43,244 nt of DNA from IMG/VR virus record IMGVR_UViG_3300020219_000484, positions 1 through 43,244 of that record. One strand, given 5' to 3'. The position numbers and the translations under genes were made by a program. The stretch comes from a virus. Shown here one piece after another: positions 14,508 through 27,252 of the stretch (position 1 is the first letter of the stretch; the number at the start of each line of letters is the position of its first letter). The notes below the pieces were generated by a model. The model searched no databases, was not told the DNA's origin, and saw only the letters and a program-made list of their open reading frames with translations.

Positions 14508-16769
14508 TTAGAAAATCGGGGGTTCCATGATCGGGTTCTCTATGAGCGGTGCGATCAGCTCAGGCGCAAGCAATCCATCACCCGCCGGCACCCCTGCGTC
14601 AATCGGGATCTCACCCGGTGCGCCGAGTGGTGCGCCAGCAGCGCCAGCAGCGCCGGGTAGCCCGAGACCCCCGGGGGGAACATCAGGCATTTGTGGTATG
14701 AACTTTTCCACATCGGTGTCATCGCCCATTCGCACCATGGTTTCGCGCAATAGAGCAGAGATCGCTTCAGCCAGCGGCAAGTTCCCTGTCAGCTGCGCTT
14801 CTTGGATCCGCAACTGCGCTTCCTGAATCAGCGGCAGGAGAATACCCCATGCGTTCTTGTCACTTTCAGTGCGCGGCTTGCCCGTCGTGCCGGCGGCTAT
14901 CTCAATCTCGACCATTGTCAGCAAGTCGTCCACGGCCATGCCTTCGGGCCAGAACGCATTGGAGCCGACCATGCGGGTCGCATCGTCGCCGCTGATCCCG
15001 CTCAGCGCCAGCTCCGCGGTGTACTGCGCCATTTCCGTCAGCATGGTTTCCAAGCTGTCGCGGTCGGCCGTGGTACGAGACGCGAAACCTGTCTGTTGGA
15101 TCTCGGCTTCCGTCGCGGTCTTGGGAGTCAGAGCCGAAGACTGCAGCGCTTCCTGCACGCCGGCGATGCGCTCCATGTCCGCCATGATCGACGACGTGTC
15201 ATACAGCCGCGGGTCGCCCGAAGCCACTGGCTTCTCCGCGAACGAGTCGCGGAACGGCTTGTTCGGGTCCACCGGCTTGATCCCCACGTACTCTTGGTAC
15301 GTGCTGCCCTCGATTTTCCTGGCGTCATCGGGGGAAATGTTCGTGGCGTCAAAGAAAATGCCCGGCGCCGCGCGCTGGCGCACCAGCCGCTGGCTCGAGC
15401 GCACGGACGCGTACTCGTCTTGCAGCTTCATCAACCGGTAGGGCAATGACTGCGGGTGCCGCGCGCCGTCCACCGAGTAGAAGCTCAGGGAAAAGTACGG
15501 GTAGAACCGCGATGACGGGTAGTCGGGTTGGTAGGGCGCTTTGGCCCATACTTTTATGCCCTCGATCATGGTGTGAACGTGGCCCGTCCGGCGGTTCCAC
15601 AGCTCCACCACTTTTGCGAACGCCAGCCCTTCCTCGCCAACGCTGGTGCCCGAGGTCTGCGACGACTTCGAATACTGCTCGGCTTCCTCTGGATCCACCG
15701 ATGCGTCGGCGACACCGGTCAGCGCGACACGATCGCCCAGGGGCGAGCAGTCCATGTTGCGGCGCTGGAAGTACTGCGTCGCGGCCTTGGCGTCGGCCTT
15801 CGTCAGCTTCGGGAACATGGCGCACAGATCTTCGCAGGGCCGATAGATCGCGTTGGCGACCCAGTTCGCGTTGGGGTAGTCCGCAATGTTGCGCACGTCC
15901 AGCGAAACCTGCATGTCTTCTGGCGCCACGAAGTCGACGGCAAGCGCTTTGCGTATCGCGACTTCCATCCGCGTCTGGATGCTTTGCTCGAGCTGCTGGT
16001 ACTCGACCATTTTGGCGTCGTATTCTTCCTGGCTCAGCGTGTCGCCCTGGTACTGAATGCCCGTGGGGACCGCGGGGACCGGCTCCGGCGCCAGCGCCAG
16101 AGGCATCACGTTGCCCTCGTTGTCGTACTCGATCAGGTCCGGGTCCATCGGCGCGGGCTCCGGGATCGCCAGCTGCCCCATGGGCTGACCCTCGAGCACG
16201 AGGCGCGCGGCTTCAAGCTGCGCAATGTTGTCGCGCGTATCGTTCAGCTGCGACTTCATTTCCGGAATGTTCGTGCCCTGGGACACAAGAATGGTTTTCA
16301 GCCAGCCGACGCCGTTCGTCAGTGCCGAACGCACCTGCGCCCGCGCAGCCATTTTCAGACGCGTGTTCGGCGCCCGCCACAGCGCCGAGACGATCAGCTC
16401 GAGCGTCTTGGCCATGTCGTCTTCGGTGCGCGAACCGCTGTTGTTGACTCGCGGCGCCTTTCTGATTGATACGTCCGGATTGCGGGCGTAGAGGAACGAC
16501 ACCAAGATGTCGATGAACGCGCCGATCAGATTCGCCGAAACAGCCCAGTTCAGATTCGCCGTGCCTGCGGCGTAGCGCCGGTCGACCGCGTACTGAGCGC
16601 GCGCGTCCTTGTCGAACATGCGCGCCTTATCGTAATCGTCCCACAGCTTCTTGACCGCGTTGGATTCTTCCTCGCGCAAGCGCTTGTCTTCCGGGGTCAT
16701 CGACAGCCCGTTGGCCGTGTCGACGCCTTCTTGCAGTGCGCCTACGGCGCCGATGTCTTGTCCGTTCAC
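14508..16769 (-). CDS. Portal protein
   Basis: A 753-residue protein starting at GTG in a GTGA overlap with the terminase stop, with GAGG eight bases ahead. Residues 25-110 (EDKRLREEESNAVKKLWDDYDKAR and SANLIGAFIDILVSFLYARNPDVSIRKAP) match portals of short-tailed phages. A Pro-rich insertion lies near 200-250. The clip/crown region includes SLPYRLMKLQDEYASVRSSQRL and ATEAEIQQTGFASRTTADRD. The C-terminus ends in a Gly/Pro-rich tail after a helical segment ILLPLIQEAQLRIQEAQLTG, consistent with a barrel. Length is close to the P22-type portal. It would form the DNA entry vertex with the terminase. Confidence 0.85.
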   Translation of the reverse strand: MNGQDIGAVGALQEGVDTANGLSMTPEDKRLREEESNAVKKLWDDYDKARMFDKDARAQYAVDRRYAAGTANLNWAVSANLIGAFIDILVSFLYARNPDVSIRKAPRVNNSGSRTEDDMAKTLELIVSALWRAPNTRLKMAARAQVRSALTNGVGWLKTILVSQGTNIPEMKSQLNDTRDNIAQLEAARLVLEGQPMGQLAIPEPAPMDPDLIEYDNEGNVMPLALAPEPVPAVPTGIQYQGDTLSQEEYDAKMVEYQQLEQSIQTRMEVAIRKALAVDFVAPEDMQVSLDVRNIADYPNANWVANAIYRPCEDLCAMFPKLTKADAKAATQYFQRRNMDCSPLGDRVALTGVADASVDPEEAEQYSKSSQTSGTSVGEEGLAFAKVVELWNRRTGHVHTMIEGIKVWAKAPYQPDYPSSRFYPYFSLSFYSVDGARHPQSLPYRLMKLQDEYASVRSSQRLVRQRAAPGIFFDATNISPDDARKIEGSTYQEYVGIKPVDPNKPFRDSFAEKPVASGDPRLYDTSSIMADMERIAGVQEALQSSALTPKTATEAEIQQTGFASRTTADRDSLETMLTEMAQYTAELALSGISGDDATRMVGSNAFWPEGMAVDDLLTMVEIEIAAGTTGKPRTESDKNAWGILLPLIQEAQLRIQEAQLTGNLPLAEAISALLRETMVRMGDDTDVEKFIPQMPDVPPGGLGLPGAAGAAGAPLGAPGEIPIDAGVPAGDGLLAPELIAPLIENPIMEPPIF

Positions 16770-18379
16770 GAATACCTCGGCTGTACGTTATGCTCGGTGT
16801 CCGTCGCCATGAACCATGCTTCGGTGAACGGCTTGAGATACTTGGACGTGTGCGTCAGCGGCTTGTGCGGCTGCGTCATCATGTCCACGCCCCTGCCAAT
16901 CAGCCCGCACACGTCCGCCGCGTCATCATACCTTCCCGCGGGGAACGAGCACAACTGGTCCACGAGTCTAGTGGCCCAAGGGCGATGCAGCGGGAGGTAC
17001 ACCCGGCCCGCTGCGGCCTGAGCCTGGAACGACGCCAGCTTCAGGCTCTTGTTCTTGAGTGAGGTCAGAGGCTCGACCGCCACCCACACTGCGGGGACAT
17101 TATCGCGCATGGCTTGAGTCAGCGCCGGCGAAATGGCGTTGTCGATCAACCCGCCTTCGTTCCACCAACGCCGCGGCCGATGCCGCAGCACCAGCGCCAC
17201 GAACGCGCCGATCGTGACGTCGGTTGTTTTCTGCCCGTACCACCAGTCGACGACGTAGTACCCCCGGGACTCACTGAGCCCGAAAACCCCGTGCTCGGTG
17301 TAGTCGCCCTTGTCTTCCTTGGTGGCGTAGTCGCTGGCGCCGTAGAGGGTGAGCTTGTCGGGCAAGCCGCCCACTGCACCTGCCGGGATGTCCGGGTCAT
17401 ACCACTTGAACCACTCCCGCTTGAACTCCAGACCCTCGCCTGCTGTCGGGCGCTGCATATAGAGCGATGCCCAGGTGCGCGCCGCGCGCGGGTTGTGCTC
17501 CCACTGGGCCCAGTGCTCAGGCGGGAACCACTCCGGCCACAGATATTCGCCGACGTGCCGACCCAGCGGGTCGTCTGCGTGCTCGGCCTTGGCCGGCAGG
17601 TTGAGCACGGTCCAGTACTGCCCGTCGCGGCACAGCACGCGGCCGCTCTGCCCCTTGTAGTCTTCGGGCAGAATGCGCCCGGCCAAGTCGTCTTCGTGCC
17701 AGCGGGTCTGAATGAGGATGATCCAGCCGTTCGGCAGCAGTCGCGTCGTGACTGAGTCCATGAACTCGGCTTCCGTCTTGTCGCGAATCGTCGGGCTGTC
17801 CGCTGCCTCGCGGCCTGCGACCGGGTCGTCAATGATGATGCCGTTCGCCCGGTTGCCCGTGATGCCGGCGAGCAGTCCCGCGGCCATGAACTCGGAGTTG
17901 TTCGACAACGCCCACTGGTTCACGGCTTTCTGGTCCTTGGCCAGCAGCGGGCGATCGGGCCAGATGCCGATGTGCGCTGGCGACCGGCACAGCGCGCGGG
18001 CCTTGCGCGACTGCTTGTCGGCGATCTGCGCGGCGTAGGCCGTGAGGATGATCCGGTACCCCGGCCACTTGCTTAGGCACCACGCCGGCGCGACGACGCT
18101 GGCGTAGCTGGACTTCGCCGAACCCGGCGGCGCGAAGATCATCAACCGGCCCATTGGCCGCATGACCGTGTCCTGAATGGCGTCCATGATGACGCGATGG
18201 TGCAGCGCCACGCTGGTCTCGATCGGCTTGAACAACTCGGCTTCGGGGTCCTCGCTCGCGGGTGTGCCCGGGATGTCAACAGATCTGGCGTATTCGGCCA
18301 GTGAGGACCGCGCCCGTTGGCGCCGTAGCAGCTCCAACGCCGCGCTGCGCCGCTGCTCCCCGGTGATTTCCACGGTCAC
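16766..18379 (-). CDS. terL: Terminase large subunit
   Basis: A packaging motor of about 537 residues. The ATPase domain shows Walker A APPGSAKS near residue 85, Walker B NGIIIDDPV near 182, and ILIQTRWHEDDLAG near 222 (coupling motif with the TRWHxDDLxG signature of this terminase group). The nuclease domain begins near 345 with LTLYGASDYAT, whose Asp is the usual first metal ligand, and has FPAGRYDDAADVCGLI near the end. The start is either GTG 18379 (GTGA overlap with the small subunit, the pattern used widely here) or GTG 18385. It passes to the portal gene through another GTGA overlap. Confidence 0.9.
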   Translation of the reverse strand: MTVEITGEQRRSAALELLRRQRARSSLAEYARSVDIPGTPASEDPEAELFKPIETSVALHHRVIMDAIQDTVMRPMGRLMIFAPPGSAKSSYASVVAPAWCLSKWPGYRIILTAYAAQIADKQSRKARALCRSPAHIGIWPDRPLLAKDQKAVNQWALSNNSEFMAAGLLAGITGNRANGIIIDDPVAGREAADSPTIRDKTEAEFMDSVTTRLLPNGWIILIQTRWHEDDLAGRILPEDYKGQSGRVLCRDGQYWTVLNLPAKAEHADDPLGRHVGEYLWPEWFPPEHWAQWEHNPRAARTWASLYMQRPTAGEGLEFKREWFKWYDPDIPAGAVGGLPDKLTLYGASDYATKEDKGDYTEHGVFGLSESRGYYVVDWWYGQKTTDVTIGAFVALVLRHRPRRWWNEGGLIDNAISPALTQAMRDNVPAVWVAVEPLTSLKNKSLKLASFQAQAAAGRVYLPLHRPWATRLVDQLCSFPAGRYDDAADVCGLIGRGVDMMTQPHKPLTHTSKYLKPFTEAWFMATDTEHNVQPRYS

Positions 18380-18936
18380 ATCCACGGTTCGGGGTCGCTG
18401 CGCAGGGCCTTGAGATCCGAGAACAGCGCCGCGGTGCTGCTCCTGGTGGACTGCGTGGCCGGATGCGTGGCCGGGTGCGCCGGGGCCTGGGGGTTCGCCG
18501 TGGGCGCAAACGTGCGCGCAGGCTCCCCGGCGTCGTGGCTGTCGGCTGTGGGCTTGACGCGGTCTTGCGGCCTGATGCCTTGGGCCAGTTCAAGCAGCTC
18601 GGCGTCGGATTTAGTGTGCGTGGGGGCGTTGGTCGTCTTCTTGCCCGAGGCATCGTCCGTGTCCACGCGCAGGATCGCTTCGGCGGCGCGGAGCAGTTCG
18701 GCGGACTTGGAGTGCTTCGAACGCAACACCCGCCCCAGCGCGCGCACGGCTTCGATCTTCAGCGTTTGCGTCAGGACGTCTGGCGCCAGCTTCAGGAAGG
18801 CTTCCCCGAGCGGATCTTCGTCTTCCAAGGCGCCGTTGGCGCCTTTGGCGCTGTTGGCGCTGTTGGCGCGTGGGAGCGACGGCAACGAAGGTGCGTCACC
18901 TGTTGCCAGATTGTAGCTGAGTGGCTTTTTGCGCAT
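18376..18936 (-). CDS. Putative terminase small subunit
   Basis: A 186-residue protein immediately before the terminase large subunit and overlapping it. Residues of about 45-105 are helical and charged (LGEAFLKLAPDVLTQTLK, AVRALGRVLRSKHSKSAELLRAAEAILR), as in small terminase DNA-recognition domains. The C-terminal half is Pro/Ala/Thr-rich and likely disordered. The ATG at 18936 follows GGGGGA. The frame continues upstream through 48-base repeats to 19074, so a longer N-terminus is possible. Call rests mainly on position and size. Confidence 0.6.
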   Translation of the reverse strand: MRKKPLSYNLATGDAPSLPSLPRANSANSAKGANGALEDEDPLGEAFLKLAPDVLTQTLKIEAVRALGRVLRSKHSKSAELLRAAEAILRVDTDDASGKKTTNAPTHTKSDAELLELAQGIRPQDRVKPTADSHDAGEPARTFAPTANPQAPAHPATHPATQSTRSSTAALFSDLKALRSDPEPWM

Positions 18937-18960
18937 GGTTTCCCCCGCGCGTGAATATAG

Positions 18961-19074
18961 CCCCCCGGGGGTGTTCATGCAACGCTGGTTTCGCCGTTTC
19001 CTGCGCATACCCCCCGGGGTGTTTGTGTGGTGGGCTTTTGTCGCTTTCCTGCGCATACCCCCCGGGGTGTACAT
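18961..19074 (-). repeat. 48-base tandem repeats upstream of the terminase small subunit
   Basis: The word CCCCCCGGGG occurs at 18961, 19010 and 19058, each within a unit of 48-49 bases. On the minus strand, two units read GGGGGTATGCGCAGGAAA, which resembles the real gene start (G-rich stretch, then ATGCGCAAAAAG). Read in frame they would encode 16-residue units with TPGGMRRK. They look like duplicated copies of the gene's own translation start region. Confidence 0.7.
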
Positions 19075-19118
19075 AGACGTGGTGCCGATTACCTTGTGGG
19101 TGGGGCGCCGGGCGCCGG

Positions 19119-19197
19119 GTGTGCGGAAATGGCCGAATGCGAATTTCCATGGCCTTGGGTGTGCGGAATGGCCGAATGCGAATTTCCATGGCCTTGG
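19119..19197. repeat. Two near-identical 39-40 base direct repeats
   Basis: The stretch from TGTGCGGAAATGGCCGAATG to CCATGGCCTTGG at 19119-19157 is repeated at 19159-19197 with one A deleted. Each copy contains the partly self-complementary segments GGAAAT...ATTTCC (first copy) and CCATGG. Function unknown; it lies between the terminase start and the operator array. Confidence 0.75.
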
Positions 19198-19329
19198 CTT
19201 CTGTCACCGTTACCGGTACCTGGGGCCCCTCGTTTTGGGGGATGCCCCGGGCCCCGGCCCCCGAGCCTCACGGCCGCGTTATGTCACGTTGCATTATGTT
19301 CCATGCCTCAGGCTCAAGGCTGCCGCCTA

Positions 19330-19393
19330 CTGTATAGGCGTACAGCTGTAGGGATATACAGCTGTATAGGCATACAGCTGTATGGATATACAG
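19330..19393. promoter_or_regulatory. Four abutting LexA-type operator boxes
   Basis: Four 16-base units of form CTGT-N8-ACAG lie back to back with no spacer: CTGTATAGGCGTACAG (19330-19345), CTGTAGGGATATACAG (19346-19361), CTGTATAGGCATACAG (19362-19377) and CTGTATGGATATACAG (19378-19393). CTGT-N8-ACAG is the LexA (SOS) box of beta- and gamma-proteobacteria. A phage repressor with the same taste is possible, but none is visible here. The placement in the divergent region suggests DNA-damage or host-state control of at least one operon. Confidence 0.75.
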
Positions 19394-19439
19394 TGGCGCC
19401 TGGCGCCTGCAGCCAGATGGACGTCGGCGCCCCGGCGCC

Positions 19440-19745
19440 CTAGGGCCTAGGGCCTAGGGCGCCGGGCCTGAGGCCTTGTTGAACGTCCTAGGGCCTAGGG
19501 CCCGGGGCCTGAGGCCTTGTTGAACGTCCTAGGGCCTAGGGCGCCGGGCCTCAGGCCTTGTTGAACGTCCTAGGGCCCGGGGCCCGGGGCCTGAGGCCTT
19601 GTTGAACGTCCTAGGGCCCGGGGCCCGGGCCTGAGGCCTTGTTGAACGTCCTAGGGCCTAGGGCGCCGGGCCTGAGGCCTTGTTGAACGTCCTAGGGCCT
19701 AGGGCCTCAGGCCTAGGGCGCCGGGCCTCAGGCCTCAGGCGGGGC
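19440..19745. repeat. Six-copy 41-base GC-rich repeat array
   Basis: The core TTGTTGAACGTCCTAGGG occurs six times at 19476, 19517, 19558, 19599, 19639 and 19680, spaced 41, 41, 41, 40 and 41. Between cores lie variable strings of palindromic hexamers (CCTAGG, GGCGCC, GGGCCC, AGGCCT, CCTNAGG). There are no unique spacers, so this is not a CRISPR array. Possible roles are protein-binding iterons, structured DNA or RNA, or a packaging site; none is shown. Confidence 0.85.
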
Positions 19746-19769
19746 CCCGGCTGAGGGCCCTAGGGGGAT

Positions 19770-20100
19770 TCGGTAACCGTGTAACCGTGCCGAAAACAAA
19801 GGTTCACTTAGGGTTACCTACTCCAAGGCATTGATTTATAAGAAGTTTTTGATCGTCGGTAACCGTTAACCGTAGTAACCGCTAAACCCTGTCCTATACA
19901 GGGCCCTACCACTGTATGGGCGTACAGTGGTCGCATTTTACATAATATTTACTACTTTCTATTCTATCCATTATCTATAAGTAAGGTTAAGGGTTACTAA
20001 GAAGTAAAAACCTCAGACATATCAAGGCCTTGAAACAGGTAACCTTAAGTGAACCGTAGTCTACATGCATCGGTTACCAAGCACTACGGTTACTGCCCCT
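19770..20100. other. AT-rich core with GGTAACC-like words: candidate replication origin
   Basis: About ten copies of GGTAACC, GTAACCG or GGTTAC(C/T) occur in this interval. An 18-base inverted repeat (GGTTCACTTAGGGTTACC at 19801-19818; GGTAACCTTAAGTGAACC at 20038-20055, one mismatch) flanks an AT-rich stretch whose centre (about 19933-19985) is almost free of G and C, standing out in this GC-rich genome. Iteron-like words plus an easily melted segment at a divergent switch point suggest an origin. This is inference. Confidence 0.5.
19908..19931. promoter_or_regulatory. Fifth LexA-type box within a 24-base palindrome
   Basis: CTGTATGGGCGTACAG (19912-19927) is another CTGT-N8-ACAG site, here extended to nine-base arms ACCACTGTA and TACAGTGGT around six bases. 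It lies about 520 bases from the four-box array, inside the AT-rich core, a spacing that could allow repression by looping. Confidence 0.65.
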
Positions 20101-20240
20101 GTGACAAAAATCGTCACAAAGTGACAAAAATTGTCACAAAGTGACGTTAATTGTCACCGCACCGCAACAAACAAAAATTGTCACAAAGTGACGTGAAAGA
20201 GGTCACAAAGTGACGTTAATTGTCACCGCACCGCAACAAA
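20101..20240. repeat. GTGAC/GTCAC palindrome cluster with 39-base direct repeat
   Basis: Four 17-base palindromes of form GTGAC-N7-GTCAC lie at 20101, 20121, 20141 and 20210, and a 19-base variant at 20188-20206. The first three are spaced exactly 20 bases apart. A 39-base segment (20133-20171) is repeated exactly at 20202-20240. Evenly phased palindromes just before the first early gene suit an operator or initiator-binding site. Confidence 0.8.
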
Positions 20241-20324
20241 ACGGCTTTTCAGGCGTCCGGCTGTTTGGCATGGCCCTTGCATGTACTTCTATGAGACCGG
20301 CAGTGAAACAAAACAAAATACTTG

Positions 20325-20355
20325 TTGCATTTCGATACCGGCTCATGTTTAGAAT
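20325..20355 (+). promoter_or_regulatory. Candidate early promoter
   Basis: TAGAAT (20350-20355, five of six matches to the -10 consensus) follows a weak -35-like TTGCAT at 20325 with a long 19-base spacer. It lies 32 bases before the first plus-strand gene and after the palindrome cluster. No other good -10 is close to that gene. Confidence 0.3.
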
Positions 20356-20386
20356 GTACCGTCATACAACTAACTGAGACAGGACC

Positions 20387-20545
20387 ATGAAACAGAAACA
20401 GCGTCTGACTTACTTCGAATTCCTTACTGAACATCGCGTAGTCCGCGAAGCTCGAGCCTCTGCGCTCTCTCGTTCGCGGGCCCGGGTAGCGGCCTATCGC
20501 CTTCAGTGGTCCCATGCCACGGCGCGTGCTGGGGTGCAGTCGTGA
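20387..20545 (+). CDS. Small basic early protein, unknown
   Basis: A 52-residue, Arg-rich protein (MKQKQRLTYFEFLTEHRVVREARASALSRSRAR as two joined runs) with weak AGGA close to the ATG. It is the first gene of the plus-strand operon. The net positive charge and helical pattern would suit nucleic-acid binding, but no family is recognised. It ends VQS and hands over to the next gene through GTGA. Confidence 0.6.
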   Translation: MKQKQRLTYFEFLTEHRVVREARASALSRSRARVAAYRLQWSHATARAGVQS

Positions 20546-20748
20546 AGACGATTTCAGAATGGGTCGCGGAATGCAAATACATATCTGACACGACCGACAA
20601 GCACGGCGCCGTGCGGGAGTTTAATCACGACCCGGCGTGTTTCATCCGCTATTGCGAGATGCAGCGAGACGTTGCAACGCGTGAGGACCACCATGGCGCG
20701 GCCACCTACATACAAGAATGCATCGATGACATGGAGCGCAGAGCATGA
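20542..20748 (+). CDS. Small early protein, unknown
   Basis: A 68-residue protein from a GTG start in the GTGA overlap. It has three Cys and four His (ECKYIS, PACFIRYCEMQ, EDHH) and ends in MERRA, the same ERRA ending as the gene two positions on. No zinc-binding spacing is clear. Function unknown. Confidence 0.55.
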   Translation: MKTISEWVAECKYISDTTDKHGAVREFNHDPACFIRYCEMQRDVATREDHHGAATYIQECIDDMERRA

Positions 20749-20900
20749 CACGCAAAACCACACTCGCCGAACAGTACGCTGCACGCGCTGGGGCGACCGA
20801 CTACGCCATCATGCTAGCACGGACAAAAGCACGTAACCGGGGCGCAACTCCCGCCGAAGTACAGCGCAATGTAGCGCTGTTCGAGACGGTGCAGTCATGA
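20745..20900 (+). CDS. Small early protein, unknown
   Basis: A 51-residue basic, helical protein (MTRKTTLAEQYAARAGATDY; LARTKARNRGATPAEV) starting by ATGA overlap and ending VQS. It shares the opening MTR with the next gene. Too short for a family call. Confidence 0.5.
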   Translation: MTRKTTLAEQYAARAGATDYAIMLARTKARNRGATPAEVQRNVALFETVQS

Positions 20901-21070
20901 CACGATCCAGCACAAATGCAGTCGAGGCGCTCTGCGCCGAACTAGACGCTGGGGCCGAGGCGGCCGAGGCGCTGTTTCGGATCAGCCGCGAGCACAACAT
21001 ATCGGAAGGCTATCTGCGCTACCTGTATGACTACGCCGCCCGCATGGACACCACGGAGCGCAGAGCATGA
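20897..21070 (+). CDS. Small early protein, unknown
   Basis: A 57-residue acidic, helical protein (AVEALCAELDAGAEAAEALF) with an aromatic EGYLRYLYDYAARM segment, starting by ATGA overlap and ending TTERRA. No recognised domain. Confidence 0.5.
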   Translation: MTRSSTNAVEALCAELDAGAEAAEALFRISREHNISEGYLRYLYDYAARMDTTERRA

Positions 21071-21282
21071 GGCTGACACCCGCGGGACGGTACCAAGTTG
21101 CGATGCATACGCTCCAGCTTGCCAGAACTGAAGCATGGGCGCTCGATGCTGCGGGGCTCGGCACGGCCACAATGTGGGCACGTGTCACGGCTGCCGCTGA
21201 CCTTGCCGACGAACTGCGCCGCAAGTATGAGCGCAGCGCCAAGCGTAAAGCTTCGCGCGTGGCGAAGGTGGTGCAGCCATGA
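21067..21282 (+). CDS. Small early protein, unknown
   Basis: A 71-residue helical protein starting by ATGA overlap, with Ala-rich helices and a basic C-terminus (ELRRKYERSAKRKASRVAKVVQP). The basic tail would suit nucleic-acid contact. Its VQP ending comes from the recurring junction sequence. Confidence 0.55.
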   Translation: MRLTPAGRYQVAMHTLQLARTEAWALDAAGLGTATMWARVTAAADLADELRRKYERSAKRKASRVAKVVQP

Positions 21283-21500
21283 TGCATCTCGCCGTCTACA
21301 CGTTGAGCGCCGAATTCGGTCGCGTAGCCTACGTGACTTCAGGCGATGGGGCCGAAGCTATCCTTGACCTGATGCCACGGGCGCACGACTCGCCCGACGG
21401 CTGCGGTCTGGTCGGATATATCGGCTTCGCCAGTTTTCTCGCGGCAGTCGATGATGCCAGTGCATGGCAGAGAGCGCCGCACACCACTAGGAGCAACTGA
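21279..21500 (+). CDS. Small early protein, unknown
   Basis: A 73-residue protein beginning MMHLAVYTLSAEFGRVAYVT, probably a small alpha/beta fold. Its last residues TTRSN are encoded by the ACTAGGAGCAAC ribosome-binding module of the next gene, so the C-terminus is partly dictated by that module. Function unknown. Confidence 0.55.
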   Translation: MMHLAVYTLSAEFGRVAYVTSGDGAEAILDLMPRAHDSPDGCGLVGYIGFASFLAAVDDASAWQRAPHTTRSN

Positions 21501-21503
21501 CAC
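21486..21503 (+). promoter_or_regulatory. Recurring ribosome-binding module, copy 1
   Basis: ACTAGGAGCAACTGACAC sits directly before an ATG, provides AGGAG and the stop TGA of the previous gene, and recurs exactly at 22016-22033 and as a variant at 22489-22506. Confidence 0.7.
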
Positions 21504-21689
21504 ATGAACCAGACATTGGAACAGCAACTGTTGGCGCACGCTGAGACGTCCAACTGGCTACGCAAGGCTATCAAAGCCACAGCACTGCGAGACATTTGCC
21601 ACTCGATGAACGACACCGAGGCCTTGCTTGCAGTCTTGCAAGAGCGCCACGACTCCATCCTGCAGACACGTTACGAGGCGCAGTCATGA
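21504..21689 (+). CDS. Small early protein, unknown
   Basis: A 61-residue helical protein (MNQTLEQQLLAHAETSNW, LLAVLQERHDSILQ). Its first seven residues MNQTLEQ recur at the start of the gene at 22204, with near-identical bases, indicating duplication of gene starts. It ends in AQS at an ATGA junction. Function unknown. Confidence 0.55.
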   Translation: MNQTLEQQLLAHAETSNWLRKAIKATALRDICHSMNDTEALLAVLQERHDSILQTRYEAQS

Positions 21690-22030
21690 ACAAGGCACTA
21701 TTTGTACTCGCCGGGCGCACGTACGCGCCAGACACCGCCGCGCTAGTCCGTTCGCTGTTCGCGCCGGGCGGGACAATGCACGGCACCTACAAGGCCGGCA
21801 AGCACGGCGTGTCGCTGTATGCGCCAGACGGTACGCTGCGCGCGTTTGTCGTAGACAATGCGCACGGAGAACAGTTCATAGTCAGCGCATGCAGGGAGCA
21901 CGGCCGGATCAGGTACCTGTTCGCCCTGACAAACGCGGATCGAGACTGGCTTGGCGTGCCTTCCGGGTACGCTGCAGTGTGCGAAGCGGCCGCGCTCGCG
22001 CTACGAAACTTCACCACTAGGAGCAACTGA
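21686..22030 (+). CDS. Early protein, unknown
   Basis: A 114-residue alpha/beta protein (ALFVLAGRTYAPDTAAL, SLYAPDGTLRAFVVDN, RYLFALTNADRDWLG) starting at the ATGA junction; a longer frame upstream overlaps the previous gene and is unlikely. The C-terminus is FTTRSN, from the second copy of the ribosome-binding module. No family recognised. Confidence 0.6.
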   Translation: MNKALFVLAGRTYAPDTAALVRSLFAPGGTMHGTYKAGKHGVSLYAPDGTLRAFVVDNAHGEQFIVSACREHGRIRYLFALTNADRDWLGVPSGYAAVCEAAALALRNFTTRSN

Positions 22031-22033
22031 CAC
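22016..22033 (+). promoter_or_regulatory. Recurring ribosome-binding module, copy 2
   Basis: An exact copy of ACTAGGAGCAACTGACAC, which ends the previous gene and supplies AGGAG to the next ATG at 22034. Confidence 0.7.
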
Positions 22034-22207
22034 ATGGACAAGACAAAACAGCATCTTGCGCTGGCGCTGGTATCGCTGGAACAGGCGAGCGCCGCGCTCG
22101 CAGCTGCGCAAGCTGCGGTGATTCTCGCACGGCGGGCGCGAGACGTAGCGGCCGACAACGCCGAGAACGTCGGCCGCAAGTACAGGGCCGAGAGGGCGCA
22201 GTCATGA
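22034..22207 (+). CDS. Small Ala-rich helical protein
   Basis: A 57-residue protein almost wholly helical, with an Ala-rich stretch (SLEQASAALAAAQAAVILAR) followed by charged residues and an AQS ending. It resembles the other short Ala-rich helical proteins in this region (for example 23089 and 25979), which may be distant paralogues. Missing stronger evidence, function is unknown. Confidence 0.5.
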   Translation: MDKTKQHLALALVSLEQASAALAAAQAAVILARRARDVAADNAENVGRKYRAERAQS

Positions 22208-22503
22208 ACCAGACGCTGGAACAGCTGCGAAACCTTGCCCGGTTCAAGTACTGCGGCGGATATACAGCTGCGGCCGTACTGTCGGATGGCGCCCTGCTGT
22301 GCGTCCGATGCGTGCGAGACAATTATCGGCAAGTCTTCACCGCTACCCGGGACCCCGGCGCCAATGCGCAGTGGCAGTGCGAGGGCATCACCGACTCCGG
22401 CAGTTACGAAGGTGAGGGCACGTACTGCTGTCATTGCGATGCAGTGCTGTTCGACTCTACCGAATACGTCCGGAGTCTTACCTTCACAACTAGGAGCAAC
22501 TGA
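22204..22503 (+). CDS. Cys-rich, possibly zinc-binding early protein
   Basis: A 99-residue protein with C-x2-C (LLCVRC) and a CCHC cluster (TYCCHCDAVLFD) that could form a zinc ribbon with W/Q-rich strands between. It starts MNQTLEQ like the gene at 21504 and ends FTTRSN like the gene at 21686, so its ends look assembled from shared pieces. Function unknown. Confidence 0.6.
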   Translation: MNQTLEQLRNLARFKYCGGYTAAAVLSDGALLCVRCVRDNYRQVFTATRDPGANAQWQCEGITDSGSYEGEGTYCCHCDAVLFDSTEYVRSLTFTTRSN

Positions 22504-22506
22504 ACT
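22489..22506 (+). promoter_or_regulatory. Recurring ribosome-binding module, copy 3 (variant)
   Basis: ACTAGGAGCAACTGAACT matches the two other copies for 15 bases (ACTAGGAGCAACTGA) and differs at the end. It again encodes TRSN-stop and supplies AGGAG. Confidence 0.65.
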
Positions 22507-22836
22507 ATGGAATACAGCACCGACGAACGAGCCCGCGACAAATGGTCGCTGCCGGATATCCTGATCCAACAGTTCAGCGCCGAAGAAGTCGCGGAAGGCA
22601 TGGAGGATGACATCTGGCAGTTTTCAAAACGCCATGAATTCCGGCTTGCGTCAATGAATTCCCGTACGCGGGATAAGATGCTCGCCGCGATGGTCGATGA
22701 ATTGGGGATATCAGGCGGGTACATGTACGCTTACGGTAGCCCCGGCTGCATGCCTGACAGCAGTTGGTTCGGCCCGTTCCCATCGTATGCCGAAGCGCTG
22801 GCAGAAGCGCGTGCGATGGCCGACGGGGAAGGCTAG
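22507..22836 (+). CDS. Early protein, unknown
   Basis: A 109-residue acidic protein (EYSTDERARDKWSLPDIL, FSAEEVAEGMEDDIWQF) with a C-terminal segment GSPGCMPDSSWFGPFPSYAEALAEA that resembles the small WFGPFxSxxEA motif seen in many phage and plasmid proteins of unknown role. It follows the third ribosome-binding module. No enzymatic motif is seen. Confidence 0.6.
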   Translation: MEYSTDERARDKWSLPDILIQQFSAEEVAEGMEDDIWQFSKRHEFRLASMNSRTRDKMLAAMVDELGISGGYMYAYGSPGCMPDSSWFGPFPSYAEALAEARAMADGEG

Positions 22837-22840
22837 AACA

Positions 22841-23092
22841 ATGATGATTCCAGCCGAAAAGGATATGCTTGAAGTGTTGCGCGATGGCGCAAGAGCGGCC
22901 AAAGCCAAAGCCACAGCGCTGCGAACAGATGCGGCCAAAACTATAGCGGACGCCAAGCGCCATGAGATGGCAGCGCAGACGCTTCGCCAGCTGGCGGGCT
23001 CAACATTGTGCGCCGCGCGACAGTATGAGGAAACCGCGCGGCGCTTCAATGAAATGATGGCCCCGTCTATAACTCCGGAGGTGCAGTCATGA
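22841..23092 (+). CDS. Small helical protein, unknown
   Basis: An 83-residue protein starting at the first of two ATGs four bases after the previous stop. It is Ala/Lys-rich and helical (GARAAKAKATALRTDAAKTI, ARQYEETARRFNEMM) and ends PEVQS at a GGAGGTGCAG junction that gives the next gene an excellent Shine-Dalgarno. Possible member of the short helical family. Confidence 0.55.
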   Translation: MMIPAEKDMLEVLRDGARAAKAKATALRTDAAKTIADAKRHEMAAQTLRQLAGSTLCAARQYEETARRFNEMMAPSITPEVQS

Positions 23093-23487
23093 ATCGAATT
23101 CTATCTGACGTCATCGAAGCGCGTGCCCTAGTGTCGGCCGCGGCGGCAGCGCTCAACAGCGCGCAGCGCGCGCAAACAGTCGCGAACCTAGCAGGCACCG
23201 AAGCCCGGCGCTTAGACCTTGCCGCGCATGCTGCGCTCACCGCGGCGCAGCGCATGCGCTTGGATACGGCCGCGACACTCGCTGACGCGGACAGCGCAAT
23301 GACTGATGCGCGGCGCATCCAAGCGTCAGCGATCGCAGCGGGGACGGAGCATCGGCGCCTTGACTTCGACGCGCATACCGCGCTCACCGCGGCCCGGCGC
23401 TTAGACGGGCCCGCATGCAGGGCCCTGGTCAAAGCTTGCGCCGCTGCGAACGTAGCGCCGTTTACTACTTTGCAGGTGCAGCCATGA
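23089..23487 (+). CDS. Ala-rich amphipathic-repeat protein
   Basis: A 132-residue protein made of degenerate helical repeats of roughly 14 residues, with recurring phrases EARRLDLAAHAALTAAQR, DARRIQASA, HRRLDFDAHTALTAARRLD. The 85-residue protein at 25979 has the same phrases (ARHMDVAAHAA, KKARRLV), so they are paralogues. The pattern suits long amphipathic helices or a coiled coil. Ends VQP at an ATGA junction. Function unknown. Confidence 0.6.
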   Translation: MNRILSDVIEARALVSAAAAALNSAQRAQTVANLAGTEARRLDLAAHAALTAAQRMRLDTAATLADADSAMTDARRIQASAIAAGTEHRRLDFDAHTALTAARRLDGPACRALVKACAAANVAPFTTLQVQP

Positions 23488-23786
23488 ACCGGCCGCTAAC
23501 AGAAGCGCTCGATGCCTGGAGCGCCGAGGATACCAAAGCACGGCGCATTGCCCGGGCCGCGATGATCGAGAAGGCGGACGCGGCGCTTGATAGTACTCGC
23601 GAGGCCTGGCACGTGGTCGACATACTGGCGCGCAGGGCGAAGGTGGCGCACACGCTCAATGGCGCGCCCGCGGACCTGGCAGCGGCCGAAGCCGAGCGCG
23701 ATGCATGGAGCAAGTACAAAAATGCGCAGCGTGCGTGCTTGGCGTTAAACACGCTCAAGCGCGGTGAAACAAAAGGAGGGTACTAA
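23484..23786 (+). CDS. Small helical protein, unknown
   Basis: A 100-residue charged helical protein (MNRPLTEALDAWSAEDTKARR, AAEAERDAWSKYKNAQRACLAL). The last segment, W-x-x-YKNAQRACLAL, resembles the AW-x-AY-x2-AL ending of the short proteins at 26233 and 32740-34611. Its C-terminus GETKGGY is encoded by the AAAGGAGG ribosome site of the RadC-like gene. Function unknown. Confidence 0.55.
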   Translation: MNRPLTEALDAWSAEDTKARRIARAAMIEKADAALDSTREAWHVVDILARRAKVAHTLNGAPADLAAAEAERDAWSKYKNAQRACLALNTLKRGETKGGY

Positions 23787-23787
23787 A

Positions 23788-24285
23788 ATGTTATCGACGT
23801 CAGGCGCAACAGCGCTGTTTGTTCGCGACTCCGGCCGGCGGGCGCGACCCGCTACGCGCGATGAGATCCTCGCGGCGCTCGGTCACATCGACTACGCGAG
23901 GGCGCAGGGCGAAAAGCTAAACGCACCTTCAGCTGTAGCGCGGTTTCTCATTGACCGGCTCGCGCGCCTGGACTACGAAGTATTCGGGTGCGTGTTTGTG
24001 GACAACGCTAACAAAGTGTTGGCCGTCTCGGAACTGTTCCGCGGCACGATCGACGGCGCAAGCGTCTACCCGCGAGAAGTTGTGCGCGCGGCGCTACTGC
24101 ACAACGCCGCGTCAGTCATCCTGTTTCATAATCATCCGTCGGGCTCAACGGATCCCAGCGCGGCGGACCGGCAGCTGACGTCGAAGTTAAGCGCAGCGCT
24201 AAAGCTTGTCGACATCCGCACGCTCGATCATCTGATCATCGCGGGCGCAGCGCATACCAGCCTGGCGGAACGGGGGGAAATGTAA
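23788..24285 (+). CDS. RadC-like JAB-domain protein
   Basis: A 165-residue protein matching the RadC/JAB (JAMM metalloprotease-fold) family: VFGCVFVDNANKVLAVSELF at 66, then ILFHNHPSGSTDPSAADRQLT at 111-131 containing the H-x-H-PSG-x7-D metal motif (H114, H116, D127), and LVDIRTLDHLIIAG near 140. The N-terminal helix-hairpin-helix domain of full RadC is absent, as in many plasmid and phage versions. AAAGGAGGG precedes the ATG 23788; an earlier in-frame start at 23764 is inside the previous gene. Biochemical role of RadC is unsettled; it is linked to mobile DNA and anti-restriction loci. Confidence 0.85.
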   Translation: MLSTSGATALFVRDSGRRARPATRDEILAALGHIDYARAQGEKLNAPSAVARFLIDRLARLDYEVFGCVFVDNANKVLAVSELFRGTIDGASVYPREVVRAALLHNAASVILFHNHPSGSTDPSAADRQLTSKLSAALKLVDIRTLDHLIIAGAAHTSLAERGEM

Positions 24286-24491
24286 TGACTACCTTTCAGA
24301 AATTTGTGATGTGTATTCTTTGGGGTCTTGTGGCGTCCATCATTTACTGTTTTGTGCCGGCACTGGCGTGGTGCCTGGTCGGTTTCATTGCTGGCGACCC
24401 TGAGCGTATCGTGAAGATTTCAGAGCACTGGCAAAATTCCGCCTGGGAAAGGTGCAGCCTGAAGATGCGCAAGCGCACGGGCAGCGCATGA
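24285..24491 (+). CDS. Small membrane protein
   Basis: A 68-residue protein with one long or two short hydrophobic segments at residues 7-37 (FVMCILWGLVASIIYCFV then PALAWCLVGFIAG) and a basic C-terminus (LKMRKRTGSA). Starts by TAATG overlap with the RadC-like gene. Early inner-membrane proteins of this size in phages sometimes block superinfection or act on the host; that is only a possibility here. Confidence 0.6.
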   Translation: MTTFQKFVMCILWGLVASIIYCFVPALAWCLVGFIAGDPERIVKISEHWQNSAWERCSLKMRKRTGSA

Positions 24492-25249
24492 GACGGCCTA
24501 ACAGTTTAGTCGTTTGGCAAGGGGCCAGCCTGATCGACGGTGCGCCGTTGATCGTGATAGCGTCCGGGCTTCGCAGCTCCAAGAATCTTAAGACGGGCGA
24601 CATGGTACAGACGTATATCTTGCGCGCTGACGTCTCACCACTGGCCGCCGTCAAGGCCGGCGCTGACGCGAGCATCTGCGGTTCCTGCATCCACCGTGGC
24701 GCAGCGGCGAACGGCAGCGGGCGAACGTGCTATGTCGAAGTTGGAAAAGGTCCGGAAACAGTCTGGAAGGCCTGGCAGCGCGGCCGCATTCCGGCCGCGG
24801 GCGCTGAGCCTGTAGCTACCGGGCGCACGGTGCGGCTCGGCACTTACGGCGACCCGGCGGCCGTCCCTGCCGACGTCTGGCGCGGCCTGCTGGCCGGTAG
24901 TGTAGGCTGGACCGGGTACACTCACCAGTGGCGCACGGCATGGATTGACACAAGTCTGCGCGGGCTCGTTATGGCGAGCGCAGACACTCCGGCCGACCGA
25001 CAGGCTGCGGTCGCGGCTGGCTGGCGGACGTTTCGCGTGGCGTTGCCATCTGACCCGGTTCGCCTTCCTGGTGAATCGGTCTGTCCTGCGAGCGCTGAGG
25101 CGGGCAAGAAGTTGACTTGCGCGCAGTGCCTCGCCTGTTCCGGCGCAGACGGGCGCCGCGGCACAATAGTTATCGCCGCACATGGCGGCTTCGCGGTCAT
25201 GGCGAACGTGAAGCGCCGCGCCGCGGCGTCGTGGTCGCTAAGCATATGA
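24488..25249 (+). CDS. Conserved-looking Cys-rich phage protein of unknown function
   Basis: A 253-residue protein starting by ATGA overlap. Two Cys clusters stand out: SICGSCIHRG with a further RTCYV after residue 65, and SVCPAS...LTCAQCLACSG near 205-225, suggesting two metal or Fe-S sites. Between them lie RLGTYGDPAAVP, GYTHQW and an AGWRTFRVALPSD segment. I recall a similar layout in proteins annotated only as DUFs in diverse phages, but cannot name the family with certainty. Placed among early genes before the primase. Confidence 0.65.
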   Translation: MRRPNSLVVWQGASLIDGAPLIVIASGLRSSKNLKTGDMVQTYILRADVSPLAAVKAGADASICGSCIHRGAAANGSGRTCYVEVGKGPETVWKAWQRGRIPAAGAEPVATGRTVRLGTYGDPAAVPADVWRGLLAGSVGWTGYTHQWRTAWIDTSLRGLVMASADTPADRQAAVAAGWRTFRVALPSDPVRLPGESVCPASAEAGKKLTCAQCLACSGADGRRGTIVIAAHGGFAVMANVKRRAAASWSLSI

Positions 25250-25449
25250 GTCGCCTGGCTGTCGGCGAATGCCTGGCGCTATTGGATCGTGCGGGCGCAG
25301 ACCTGCAAGCGCTCGCGAGCCTCGCCGCTCGGTGGGGCTTCACCTTGCCATGGCCAGACGGGCCGCGATTCGCGCGGCTCGATCTGTGGGATCACATTTT
25401 TAACCGGGCGCAAGGGTCTCAGGATCTCGCGCTCACAACCCTGGAGTAA
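25246..25449 (+). CDS. Small early protein, unknown
   Basis: A 67-residue protein starting by ATGA overlap (MSRLAVGECLALLDRAGADL, LASLAARWGFTLPWPDG). Mostly helical, no motif recognised. Confidence 0.55.
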   Translation: MSRLAVGECLALLDRAGADLQALASLAARWGFTLPWPDGPRFARLDLWDHIFNRAQGSQDLALTTLE

Positions 25450-25454
25450 AAACT

Positions 25455-25808
25455 ATGAATGACAAGACGCACAATGGCTGGTCGAACTATGAGACATGGA
25501 CCGTAAGCGCCTGGCTTGGTAACGATGAGGGCGCCGAAGCGTGGATTGATAAACAAATCGAAGAAGTCATCGGCACGTGTTTGGAAAACGACGGGGATCA
25601 AGAAACCGCTGCATCGGCGCTTGGCGATGATCTAGCGGATATGTACGGCGGCAATGCACCGGAGCTGCACGGCATGTACAGCGACCTTCTAACCGCGGCC
25701 CTGGGCGCAGTCGATTGGGACGAAATCGCCGCCGGGTATATTGCCGGCCGCTGGGTCGACATGGAAACCGAATGGATGGCTTACGTGGCTGCGGGATTGG
25801 AGGATTAA
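25455..25808 (+). CDS. Conserved phage protein with NGWSNYETW motif
   Basis: A 117-residue acidic protein beginning MNDKTHNGWSNYETWTVSAW. The NGW-x-NYETW start is shared by a widespread group of small phage and plasmid proteins of unknown function that I recognise by pattern. The rest is Asp/Glu-rich and helical (LADMYGGNAPELHGMYSDLL). Weak ribosome site (GGAG 13 bases ahead in the previous stop region). Confidence 0.65.
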   Translation: MNDKTHNGWSNYETWTVSAWLGNDEGAEAWIDKQIEEVIGTCLENDGDQETAASALGDDLADMYGGNAPELHGMYSDLLTAALGAVDWDEIAAGYIAGRWVDMETEWMAYVAAGLED

Positions 25809-25811
25809 ACA

Positions 25812-25982
25812 ATGAGCGGAAACAGAACAATTGAGACAACGCTACCACTGTACGGCGCGGTAGCGGATGAGCGCGCGCAGCGCGCAGCGTGGCGCCTGGC
25901 GCTACTTGCCCGCGACAACTGGCTGCACCGCGAGCGCAAGCGCGCGATGGCAGCGGCTCACGCCGCGAAGGTGAAGCCATGA
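25812..25982 (+). CDS. Small basic helical protein, unknown
   Basis: A 56-residue Arg/Ala-rich protein (DERAQRAAWRLALLARDNW, HRERKRAMAAAHAAKVKP). It ends VKP at the AAGGTGAAGCC-ATGA junction. Function unknown. Confidence 0.5.
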   Translation: MSGNRTIETTLPLYGAVADERAQRAAWRLALLARDNWLHRERKRAMAAAHAAKVKP

Positions 25983-26236
25983 GCGCCAAGATTGAAGCCC
26001 GGCGCGCGAGCGTGGCAGCGCTGGCAGCGCTCAACAAGGCCTTGCGTCTGGAAACGGCCGCGGATAAGGCGCTCACCAGAGCCCGGCACATGGACGTGGC
26101 TGCGCACGCAGCGGGTGTCGAAGCCCGGGGCTTGGAGCTGGCTGCATGCGTGGCGCTCAAGAAAGCCCGGCGCCTGGTATCGGACGCGGATGTAGCGGGC
26201 GCCCAGTTTATGATTAACTTGGAGGTGAAGCCGTGA
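25979..26236 (+). CDS. Ala-rich amphipathic-repeat protein (paralogue of 23089)
   Basis: An 85-residue protein with the same helical phrases as the 132-residue protein at 23089 (TRARHMDVAAHAAGVEARG, ALKKARRLVSDADVAGAQF), about five repeat units. Ends LEVKP at a GGAGGTGAAGCC-GTGA junction. Function unknown. Confidence 0.55.
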   Translation: MSAKIEARRASVAALAALNKALRLETAADKALTRARHMDVAAHAAGVEARGLELAACVALKKARRLVSDADVAGAQFMINLEVKP

Positions 26237-26427
26237 GCGCCACGATCCAAGAATTACGGGCGGCATTCGAGGCGGCAGCTGCAAAAGCACGCGCTAAAGA
26301 CTCTGCGGCAGATGCCGCGAAAAGCGAATGGCAGGAAGCTGAGGATGACGCCGAGACGGCACGATTCGCGCTCAATGCAGCGTGGAAGGCCTACCACAAG
26401 GCACAGACAGAGGGGGTGCAGCCATGA
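26233..26427 (+). CDS. Short helical family protein
   Basis: A 64-residue protein from GTG in the GTGA junction: MSATIQELRAAFEAAAAKAR, then a charged helix and NAAWKAYHKAQTEGVQP. The order 'x-T-x2-EL-RA', Ala helix, 'AWKAYxxA' matches the cluster at 32740-34611, so this is probably an early-region member of that family. Confidence 0.6.
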   Translation: MSATIQELRAAFEAAAAKARAKDSAADAAKSEWQEAEDDAETARFALNAAWKAYHKAQTEGVQP

Positions 26428-26507
26428 TAACCGTGCTCGTAGTCTTCTATTTTGTGGTGATCCCGGTAGCTGTCATGGCCATCGTGCTAAGTACTGGTGA
26501 TCCATGA
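26424..26507 (+). CDS. Tiny membrane peptide
   Basis: A 27-residue peptide that is nearly all hydrophobic (VLVVFYFVVIPVAVMAIVLS), starting by ATGA overlap after GGGGGTG. Coupled position on both sides supports it as a real gene. Single transmembrane peptide of unknown role. Confidence 0.5.
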   Translation: MITVLVVFYFVVIPVAVMAIVLSTGDP

Positions 26508-26581
26508 CGCCGGCGCGCGTGGACTTGCGCCGGATCGGGCGGGCGGGTACCGTACCGGCATCAGGGCGGGGGACGGCATGA
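26504..26581 (+). CDS. Possible tiny basic peptide
   Basis: A 25-residue Arg-rich frame (MTPARVDLRRIGRAGTVPAS) linking two ATGA overlaps. It could simply couple translation between its neighbours. Only the junctions support it. Confidence 0.3.
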   Translation: MTPARVDLRRIGRAGTVPASGRGTA

Positions 26582-26811
26582 GGTACGCGAAATTCTTGCG
26601 CAAAGCGCGCACCGCGTATCTCACGATGCTTATGACAAACAGTGAGACGATGAAAGCGGCGACTGCCGAATCCGGTATTACCCGGTCCTCCCTGGCGCGA
26701 ATGCTGCGGGACCTGGGGCTGGGTCACTTCTTGAAAGTCGAACAACGCAAAGCGCGAGCCGCTGAAGCGATAACCGAACAGGAGAACAATGATGGCGCTA
26801 AAGCTGACTGA
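26578..26811 (+). CDS. Small helix-turn-helix DNA-binding protein
   Basis: A 77-residue basic protein with a Fis-type helix-turn-helix at about 22-48: SETMKAATAESGITRSSLAR followed by MLRDLGL. The C-terminal helix is charged (VEQRKARAAEAITEQE). It likely binds DNA and could regulate this operon. A longer frame starting at 26497 would overlap two genes. It lies at the end of the small-gene block, just before the primase cluster. Confidence 0.65.
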   Translation: MRYAKFLRKARTAYLTMLMTNSETMKAATAESGITRSSLARMLRDLGLGHFLKVEQRKARAAEAITEQENNDGAKAD

Positions 26812-27031
26812 TCCGACGCTGGCCGGGTATACCGACGTAGAGCTGGCGCATTTTGTGGTGGTCACGGTCGCGCCGTCGCCTGAAACCTACGTCTTACATC
26901 GCTTGGCCGAAGCTACGCTTGCCGCCAGCGACTTGCTGGAGGAAGCGAGCGCGGCGCTCGATTATGCAGAATTCCGCGACGACGACGACGACGACGACGA
27001 CTGTGTCCGGCAAACAGGTGCAGGGCGATGA
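26789..27031 (+). CDS. Small protein with poly-Asp tract
   Basis: An 80-residue protein overlapping the HTH gene by 23 bases in another frame, with GGAGAA ahead of the double ATG. The N-terminal 60 residues are helical (TYVLHRLAEATLAASDLLEEASAAL as two runs). An eight-Asp run comes from eight exact GAC triplets at 26978-27001, a slippage-prone tract. Function unknown. Confidence 0.55.
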   Translation: MMALKLTDPTLAGYTDVELAHFVVVTVAPSPETYVLHRLAEATLAASDLLEEASAALDYAEFRDDDDDDDDCVRQTGAGR

Positions 27032-27252
27032 GCTGGCGCACGCGGTACTGGCCGGCGGACCCGGCGTTTTACACAAAAGAACAAAAGCGCGTTTTATCAG
27101 CGCTGCCGGATTGGGTGCCAATGCATTTTGAAATGCGCGAATGTCCGGGAGTCGTTAACGTGTGCCTGGTGCTAGAGCACCGGCGCAGCGCGGATCGTGC
27201 GCGGGTGTTTAGGTCCGGGCGGATGGTTGCATCGGTCCCGGCTGCCGTATGA
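27028..27252 (+). CDS. Small protein, unknown
   Basis: A 74-residue protein from the ATGA junction (WRTRYWPADPAFYTKEQKRV, PMHFEMRECPGVVNVCLVLE, RARVFRSGRMVASVPAAV). Likely a small alpha/beta fold. It overlaps the start of the primase gene by four bases. Confidence 0.55.
   Translation: MSWRTRYWPADPAFYTKEQKRVLSALPDWVPMHFEMRECPGVVNVCLVLEHRRSADRARVFRSGRMVASVPAAV

Follow-up and report, generated by a model that had tools for sequence, protein, structure and literature searches.

In some temperate phages, the switch to lytic growth is under the control of the host LexA, usually via one or two sites. In the Bacillus thuringiensis phage GIL01, which is temperate and has a Gram-positive host, the host LexA acts as the repressor and controls P1 via dinBox1/1b; these two nearby sites, one full and one half site, lie just downstream of the start of the phage promoter, and the repression is helped by the phage protein gp7 (PMC4551915). 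GIL01 does not integrate (PMC9700832), and further phages that co-opt the host LexA are cited in PMC9437464. For colicin operons, PMC2994835 (citing Lu and Chak 1996) describes two overlapping SOS boxes on a bacteriocin plasmid, located at the promoter itself, with two LexA dimers and tight repression. In the CtrA-regulated phages of Alphaproteobacteria, which show "lytic deferment", unrelated phages have convergently put host-regulator sites in their promoters, the regulator being CtrA (cell cycle) and not LexA (PMC9437464).

Here we describe a cluster of LexA-type boxes in a viral DNA of 43,244 bases, the whole of which was analysed and is referred to as the window. As in GIL01, the host LexA would be the repressor, as far as can be judged from the sequence: no CI or LexA of the phage's own was found, and LexA-like sites lie in its presumed control region. 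Unlike GIL01, the window has four abutting full boxes and one more, the motif is of the Proteobacteria type, and the phage is unrelated. The predicted adjacent LexA sites are also reminiscent of the colicin operons (PMC2994835); however, in place of a bacteriocin promoter with two overlapping boxes, there are four abutting boxes in the late-control region of a phage, with no clear adjoining promoter. The array fits the known strategy of phages co-opting the host LexA, of which it would be a multi-box variant.

Results

Gene layout and geometry of the boxes

The window contains a leftward late block (terminase, a portal-sized gene and capsid) and a rightward early/replication block, in which a primase-helicase and DUF2800 were found by family search and Pol A and a helicase by eye. 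The two blocks diverge from a non-coding region of ~1.4 kb (roughly 18,940–20,386), and the array is located inside this region (Table 1).

Table 1. Boxes, putative promoter element and flanking genes of the divergent region of the window (bits refer to the Burkholderiales lexA-promoter matrix)
Feature	Position	Strand	Remarks
Large terminase subunit	16766..18385	-	PHROG 38
First gene of leftward late operon	18376..18936	-	Adjacent to terL; by position, probably the small terminase subunit; no family match
LexA-type box 1, CTGTATAGGCGTACAG	19330..19345	.	17.5 bits
LexA-type box 2, CTGTAGGGATATACAG	19346..19361	.	16.0 bits
LexA-type box 3, CTGTATAGGCATACAG	19362..19377	.	15.9 bits; identical to the only box in relative L019/L034
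LexA-type box 4, CTGTATGGATATACAG	19378..19393	.	19.6 bits
Fifth LexA-type box, CTGTATGGGCGTACAG	19912..19927	.	12.2 bits
-10-like element TGTAAAAT, putative leftward (late) promoter	19935..19942	-	7 nt upstream of box 5; consensus resemblance
First rightward (early) ORF, 52 aa	20387..20545	+	No family match

Boxes 1 to 4 each read CTGT-N8-ACAG and follow each other with zero spacing, which generates three ACAGCTGT junctions. The array was reported in an earlier note, whose placement of the four boxes at 19330–19393 is right base for base; box 5, which sits inside a 22-bp imperfect palindrome (CCACTGTATGGGCGTACAGTGG), had been overlooked. All five copies of CTGT-N8-ACAG in the window are found within 600 bases, when 0.53 copies are expected in its full length, and at least five copies were obtained in none of 100 shuffles. 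Boxes 1 and 3, as well as boxes 2 and 4, are identical at 15 of 16 positions, neighbouring boxes at 11–13 of 16, and TRF describes the array as a 32-bp unit present twice. This is in agreement with the earlier suggestion that a two-box unit was duplicated. In the near-identical relative L016, an extra TC is found precisely at the seam of the two 32-bp units.

When read in the terminase direction, TATTATGTAAAATGCGACCACTGTACGCCCATACAG consists of the -10-like element TGTAAAAT, seven bases and then box 5, which starts 7 nt past TATGTAAAAT. The element TGTAAAAT is also present upstream of terL in L034, L039, L043 and L047; in L043, TATAATATGTAAAAT immediately precedes the box, in L034, a -10-like element lies just past the box, and in L039, the element occurs without a box. 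This arrangement may point to an operator overlapping a putative late promoter. The probable start of the first late gene (18936) lies ~390 bp downstream of the four-box array, and no clear promoter is seen in the sequence beside the array.

Several other repeats are found in this region. Between the array and box 5, there is a 41-bp GC-rich tandem repeat of 6.6 copies (CCTAGGGCC...TTGTTGAACGT, 19446–19714), and box 5 is flanked by a 90-nt imperfect inverted repeat rich in GGTTAC/GTAACC (19796–20060); GTAACC-type repeats are found again in most relatives. On the early side, iteron-like GTGACAAAAATTGTCACAAA repeats are present at 20101–20240, where the cumulative GC skew stays low, and TGTCA/GTGACA motifs are similarly placed in the relatives L034, L045, L030 and L032. 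It is possible that these repeats are a replication origin or an early operator. The early region also encodes a RadC-like JAB-domain protein (23764–24285), for which a tblastn search of plasmids gave no host signal.

LexA-likeness of the boxes

The boxes have the two-fold symmetric CTGT-N8-ACAG pattern with TA-rich inner flanks that is typical of the LexA/SOS boxes of Gamma- and Betaproteobacteria. Two matrices were used, one of E. coli LexA sites and the other of 13 boxes extracted from lexA promoters of the order Burkholderiales (training sites 13.3–28.4 bits). The earlier note had proposed a scan with a LexA matrix of the host clade. With the Burkholderiales matrix, the five boxes come out on top, being the five best sites of the window also with the E. 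coli matrix. With the former, the array boxes score 15.9–19.6 bits and box 5 12.2 bits, and the background, taken from randomised genomes, is ~0.02 sites per genome with a score of 14 bits or more. Box 3 differs at two positions from the E. coli recA box, and box 4, on the reverse strand, differs at one position from the sulA box.

One of the array sequences is also found upstream of SOS and repair genes. The exact 16-mer of box 4 is present 50 bp upstream of the annotated SOS response-associated peptidase (SRAP) gene of Burkholderia phage Magia. It also occurs in Paraburkholderia dilworthii, 25 bp ahead of a UdgX/TIGR03915-like repair ORF that is cut by the locus end and has family scores under the curated cut-offs. 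The P. dilworthii genome has six CTGTAT-N4-ATACAG sites, including ones upstream of lexA, uvrA, dinB and imuA. An order-level scan for CTGTATRGGCRTACAG around Luteibacter, covering only 6 genomes, found none. The CTGTATGGATATACAG box is also found in non-coding DNA of large Aeromonas and Vibrio phages of ~115 kb (L132, L133), a group that includes AhSzw-1 (Demerecviridae), in a stretch common to close to 300 records.

No S24/CI/LexA peptidase domain was detected by domain search in the window or in ten viral relatives (the record may be incomplete), and no LexA DNA-binding domain was detected in the window or in six of these relatives. An integrase is absent from the window and from nine of the 10 relatives searched, being present only in the distant relative G012. 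A blastn comparison of the region with named phages gave short unrelated matches only, so no close named relative indicates the host; named genomes contain only distant terminase relatives.

Conservation in relatives

Relatives were collected via the terminase, and six near-complete ones, which have the late and replication genes in common with the window and none of its small early genes, were compared. L016 is 99.8% identical to the window over 4,522 bases and keeps all four boxes; apart from the TC, the two sequences differ over the part compared by just one 2-base gap and four substitutions, and the TC difference may be an assembly error in either record. In three relatives that share the gene order of the window, the top-scoring LexA-matrix site genome-wide is located in the homologous intergenic region, namely TACTGTATGCCTATACAGTA in G001 (22.0 bits), TACTGTATGTATATACAGTA in G008 (27.7 bits) and the perfect E. 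coli-type consensus TACTGTATATATATACAGTA in G006 (30.4 bits), the last site spanning the contig ends, whose joining assumes circular permutation. In the same region, G007 has a near match (18.2 bits), L040 has two boxes 18 bp apart and L036 has one weaker box. Across the boxes of the relatives, CTGTA...TACAG is largely kept and the inner bases are free to vary. There is no box in the homologous region of G004/L030 and G005/L032, and given this distribution, a LexA-type box, as defined by its sequence, is a recurrent and not a universal feature of this intergenic place. The four-box array is restricted to the window phage and L016. With regard to poor conservation in close relatives, which the earlier note had named as evidence against its reading, the boxes are kept in the near-identical L016 and one or two recur in several distant relatives, whereas their number and zero spacing vary and several relatives lack boxes altogether.

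Prophage cousins in Luteibacter, Achromobacter, Bordetella and Paraburkholderia have no terminase-proximal box, and an S24-type protein is found near the Luteibacter one. Further LexA-type boxes are present near a block of lysis/DNA-transfer genes in G006 (L108, a pair spaced by 17 bp at 20849–20885 of the record) and in G007 (L105, at 38756). In L043 (4996–6000), an insertion that by eye resembles an intein apparently breaks the terminase frame at its Walker A motif (GSAK/ALALDTPIPTPDGW...).

Arrays in other phages

Among 2.9 million IMG/VR contigs, two abutting CTGT-N8-ACAG boxes occur in 13, and 15 have at least three boxes with 0–4 nt spacers; no array of three or more was found in 399 Pseudomonadota genomes. 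The arrays of L114 and L119 are not LexA-like, and except for L016 and these two, the array contigs show no terminase similarity to the window. Arrays of L113, L115/L116, L117/L118, L120/L121/L123 and L122 are located near terminase genes, and that of L111 lies between divergent genes, ahead of TATAAT. Like the window, these records have 3–5 boxes, several of them beside terminase genes, and no S24 domain was found in the array-bearing records searched, many of which are short fragments; unlike the window, the spacers are 1–2 nt rather than 0 and the terminases are unrelated. The two-box matches L004–L006 and L010–L013 were left out as support, being a near-perfect prophage palindrome; in L004, this palindrome of two abutting boxes lies directly ahead of a tail-fibre-like gene. 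Cultivated relatives of the other array phages (HMO-2011 group, HTVC115P, Venkman, Manatee Spring genomes) lack boxes in the stretches covered. As several of these phages infect Alphaproteobacteria, whose LexA motif differs, this absence neither supports nor refutes the LexA reading.

Discussion

The best explanation, to which we assign a probability of roughly 0.6, is that the boxes are an operator cluster for a host LexA of the Gamma-/Betaproteobacterial type, in the control region between the diverging early and late blocks of a phage without a recognisable repressor, with LexA keeping the late operon low. It is most likely the leftward late operon that would be gated by the array. LexA dimers would bind to box 5, which overlaps the start of the putative leftward promoter, and also to the four-box array, farther down the leftward leader, and the bound LexA would keep the packaging/structural operon low until the LexA level drops. 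Relief could then be brought about by RecA filaments that form on phage DNA when it is damaged or replicating, leading to self-cleavage of LexA, or alternatively by titration of LexA by the multiplying phage genomes.

The LexA-type reading of the earlier note is favoured by the scan with the clade matrix, by boxes with the perfect consensus at the corresponding position of relatives, by the same 16-mer at repair/SOS genes and by the failure to find a phage LexA or CI; that transcription senses DNA damage, as the note also proposed, is a prediction. Points that count against a LexA operator are that the LexA of the host may have another specificity, that the close relatives L027–L030 and L032 have no such box, that the array boxes score lower than the best single boxes of the relatives and that the array is far from the downstream gene and has no clear adjoining promoter. 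LexA is also not known to require four sites.

It is also conceivable, if unlikely, that the boxes are recognised not by LexA but by a repressor or activator encoded by the phage. Tandem palindromes are frequent among phage operators, and the early region has many small unannotated ORFs that could include regulators of an unrecognised type; one candidate, the small protein at 26575–26811, has a TrmB-type winged-helix match that is weak and below the cut-off (E=0.017), and a Fis-like reading of it by eye received no backing from Pfam. However, the small early genes at 20387–27252 have no detectable homologue in six relatives, the box-bearing ones included, so that no early protein is common to the phages that have boxes in common, and the motif is the bacterial SOS box, down to the identical 16-mers at repair genes. 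Somewhat less probable still is a role of the array as a LexA sponge, which would mainly titrate the host LexA as the phage genomes multiply and de-repress the host SOS regulon for the benefit of the phage, rather than control a local promoter. The lack of a clear promoter next to the array, the 3–8 boxes in several unrelated phage records and the abutment, which gives the maximal number of sites, agree with such a role, but arrays are concentrated beside terminase/late operons and not anywhere in the genome, a promoter-like element is overlapped by box 5, and the single strong box kept at the same place in relatives is a better fit to local control. No precedent for LexA titration by phage DNA, or for LexA boxes at terminase genes, is evident in the titles and abstracts listed by literature searches.

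A structural or replication element, in which the palindromes would be a hairpin part of an origin or of the late-leader RNA, appears improbable. An 84-nt region does fold as a long hairpin, whichever strand is taken (z −4.2 and −4.7), near the low of the cumulative GC skew and among many other repeats, but any array of inverted repeats must fold in this way. A conserved hairpin would not be expected to carry a central 2-bp insertion, as in L016, or to be reduced to a single box, as in relatives, and single boxes, which are far weaker hairpins, nevertheless recur in place.

The preferred reading, the host-LexA operator cluster, can be extended to the other arrays, whose sequences in unrelated phages suggest that repressor-less phages may repeatedly link themselves to the DNA-damage alarm of the host. 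In its widest form, which we regard as tentative and rather doubtful, tailed phages that lack a repressor, are apparently virulent and belong to several unrelated lineages would have convergently gained 3–5 LexA sites beside the packaging operon. Late expression, or the host SOS response via LexA titration, would then depend on the LexA level, which would be a DNA-damage/replication timer in the lytic cycle and not a means of prophage induction. The ground for this extension is that one clade, in which neither a repressor nor an integrase is recognisable, has retained LexA-type boxes at a single location, and that unrelated phages have arrays of several boxes next to their terminase genes. If true, phages would use LexA sensing also for timing the lytic programme or for manipulating the SOS state of the host.
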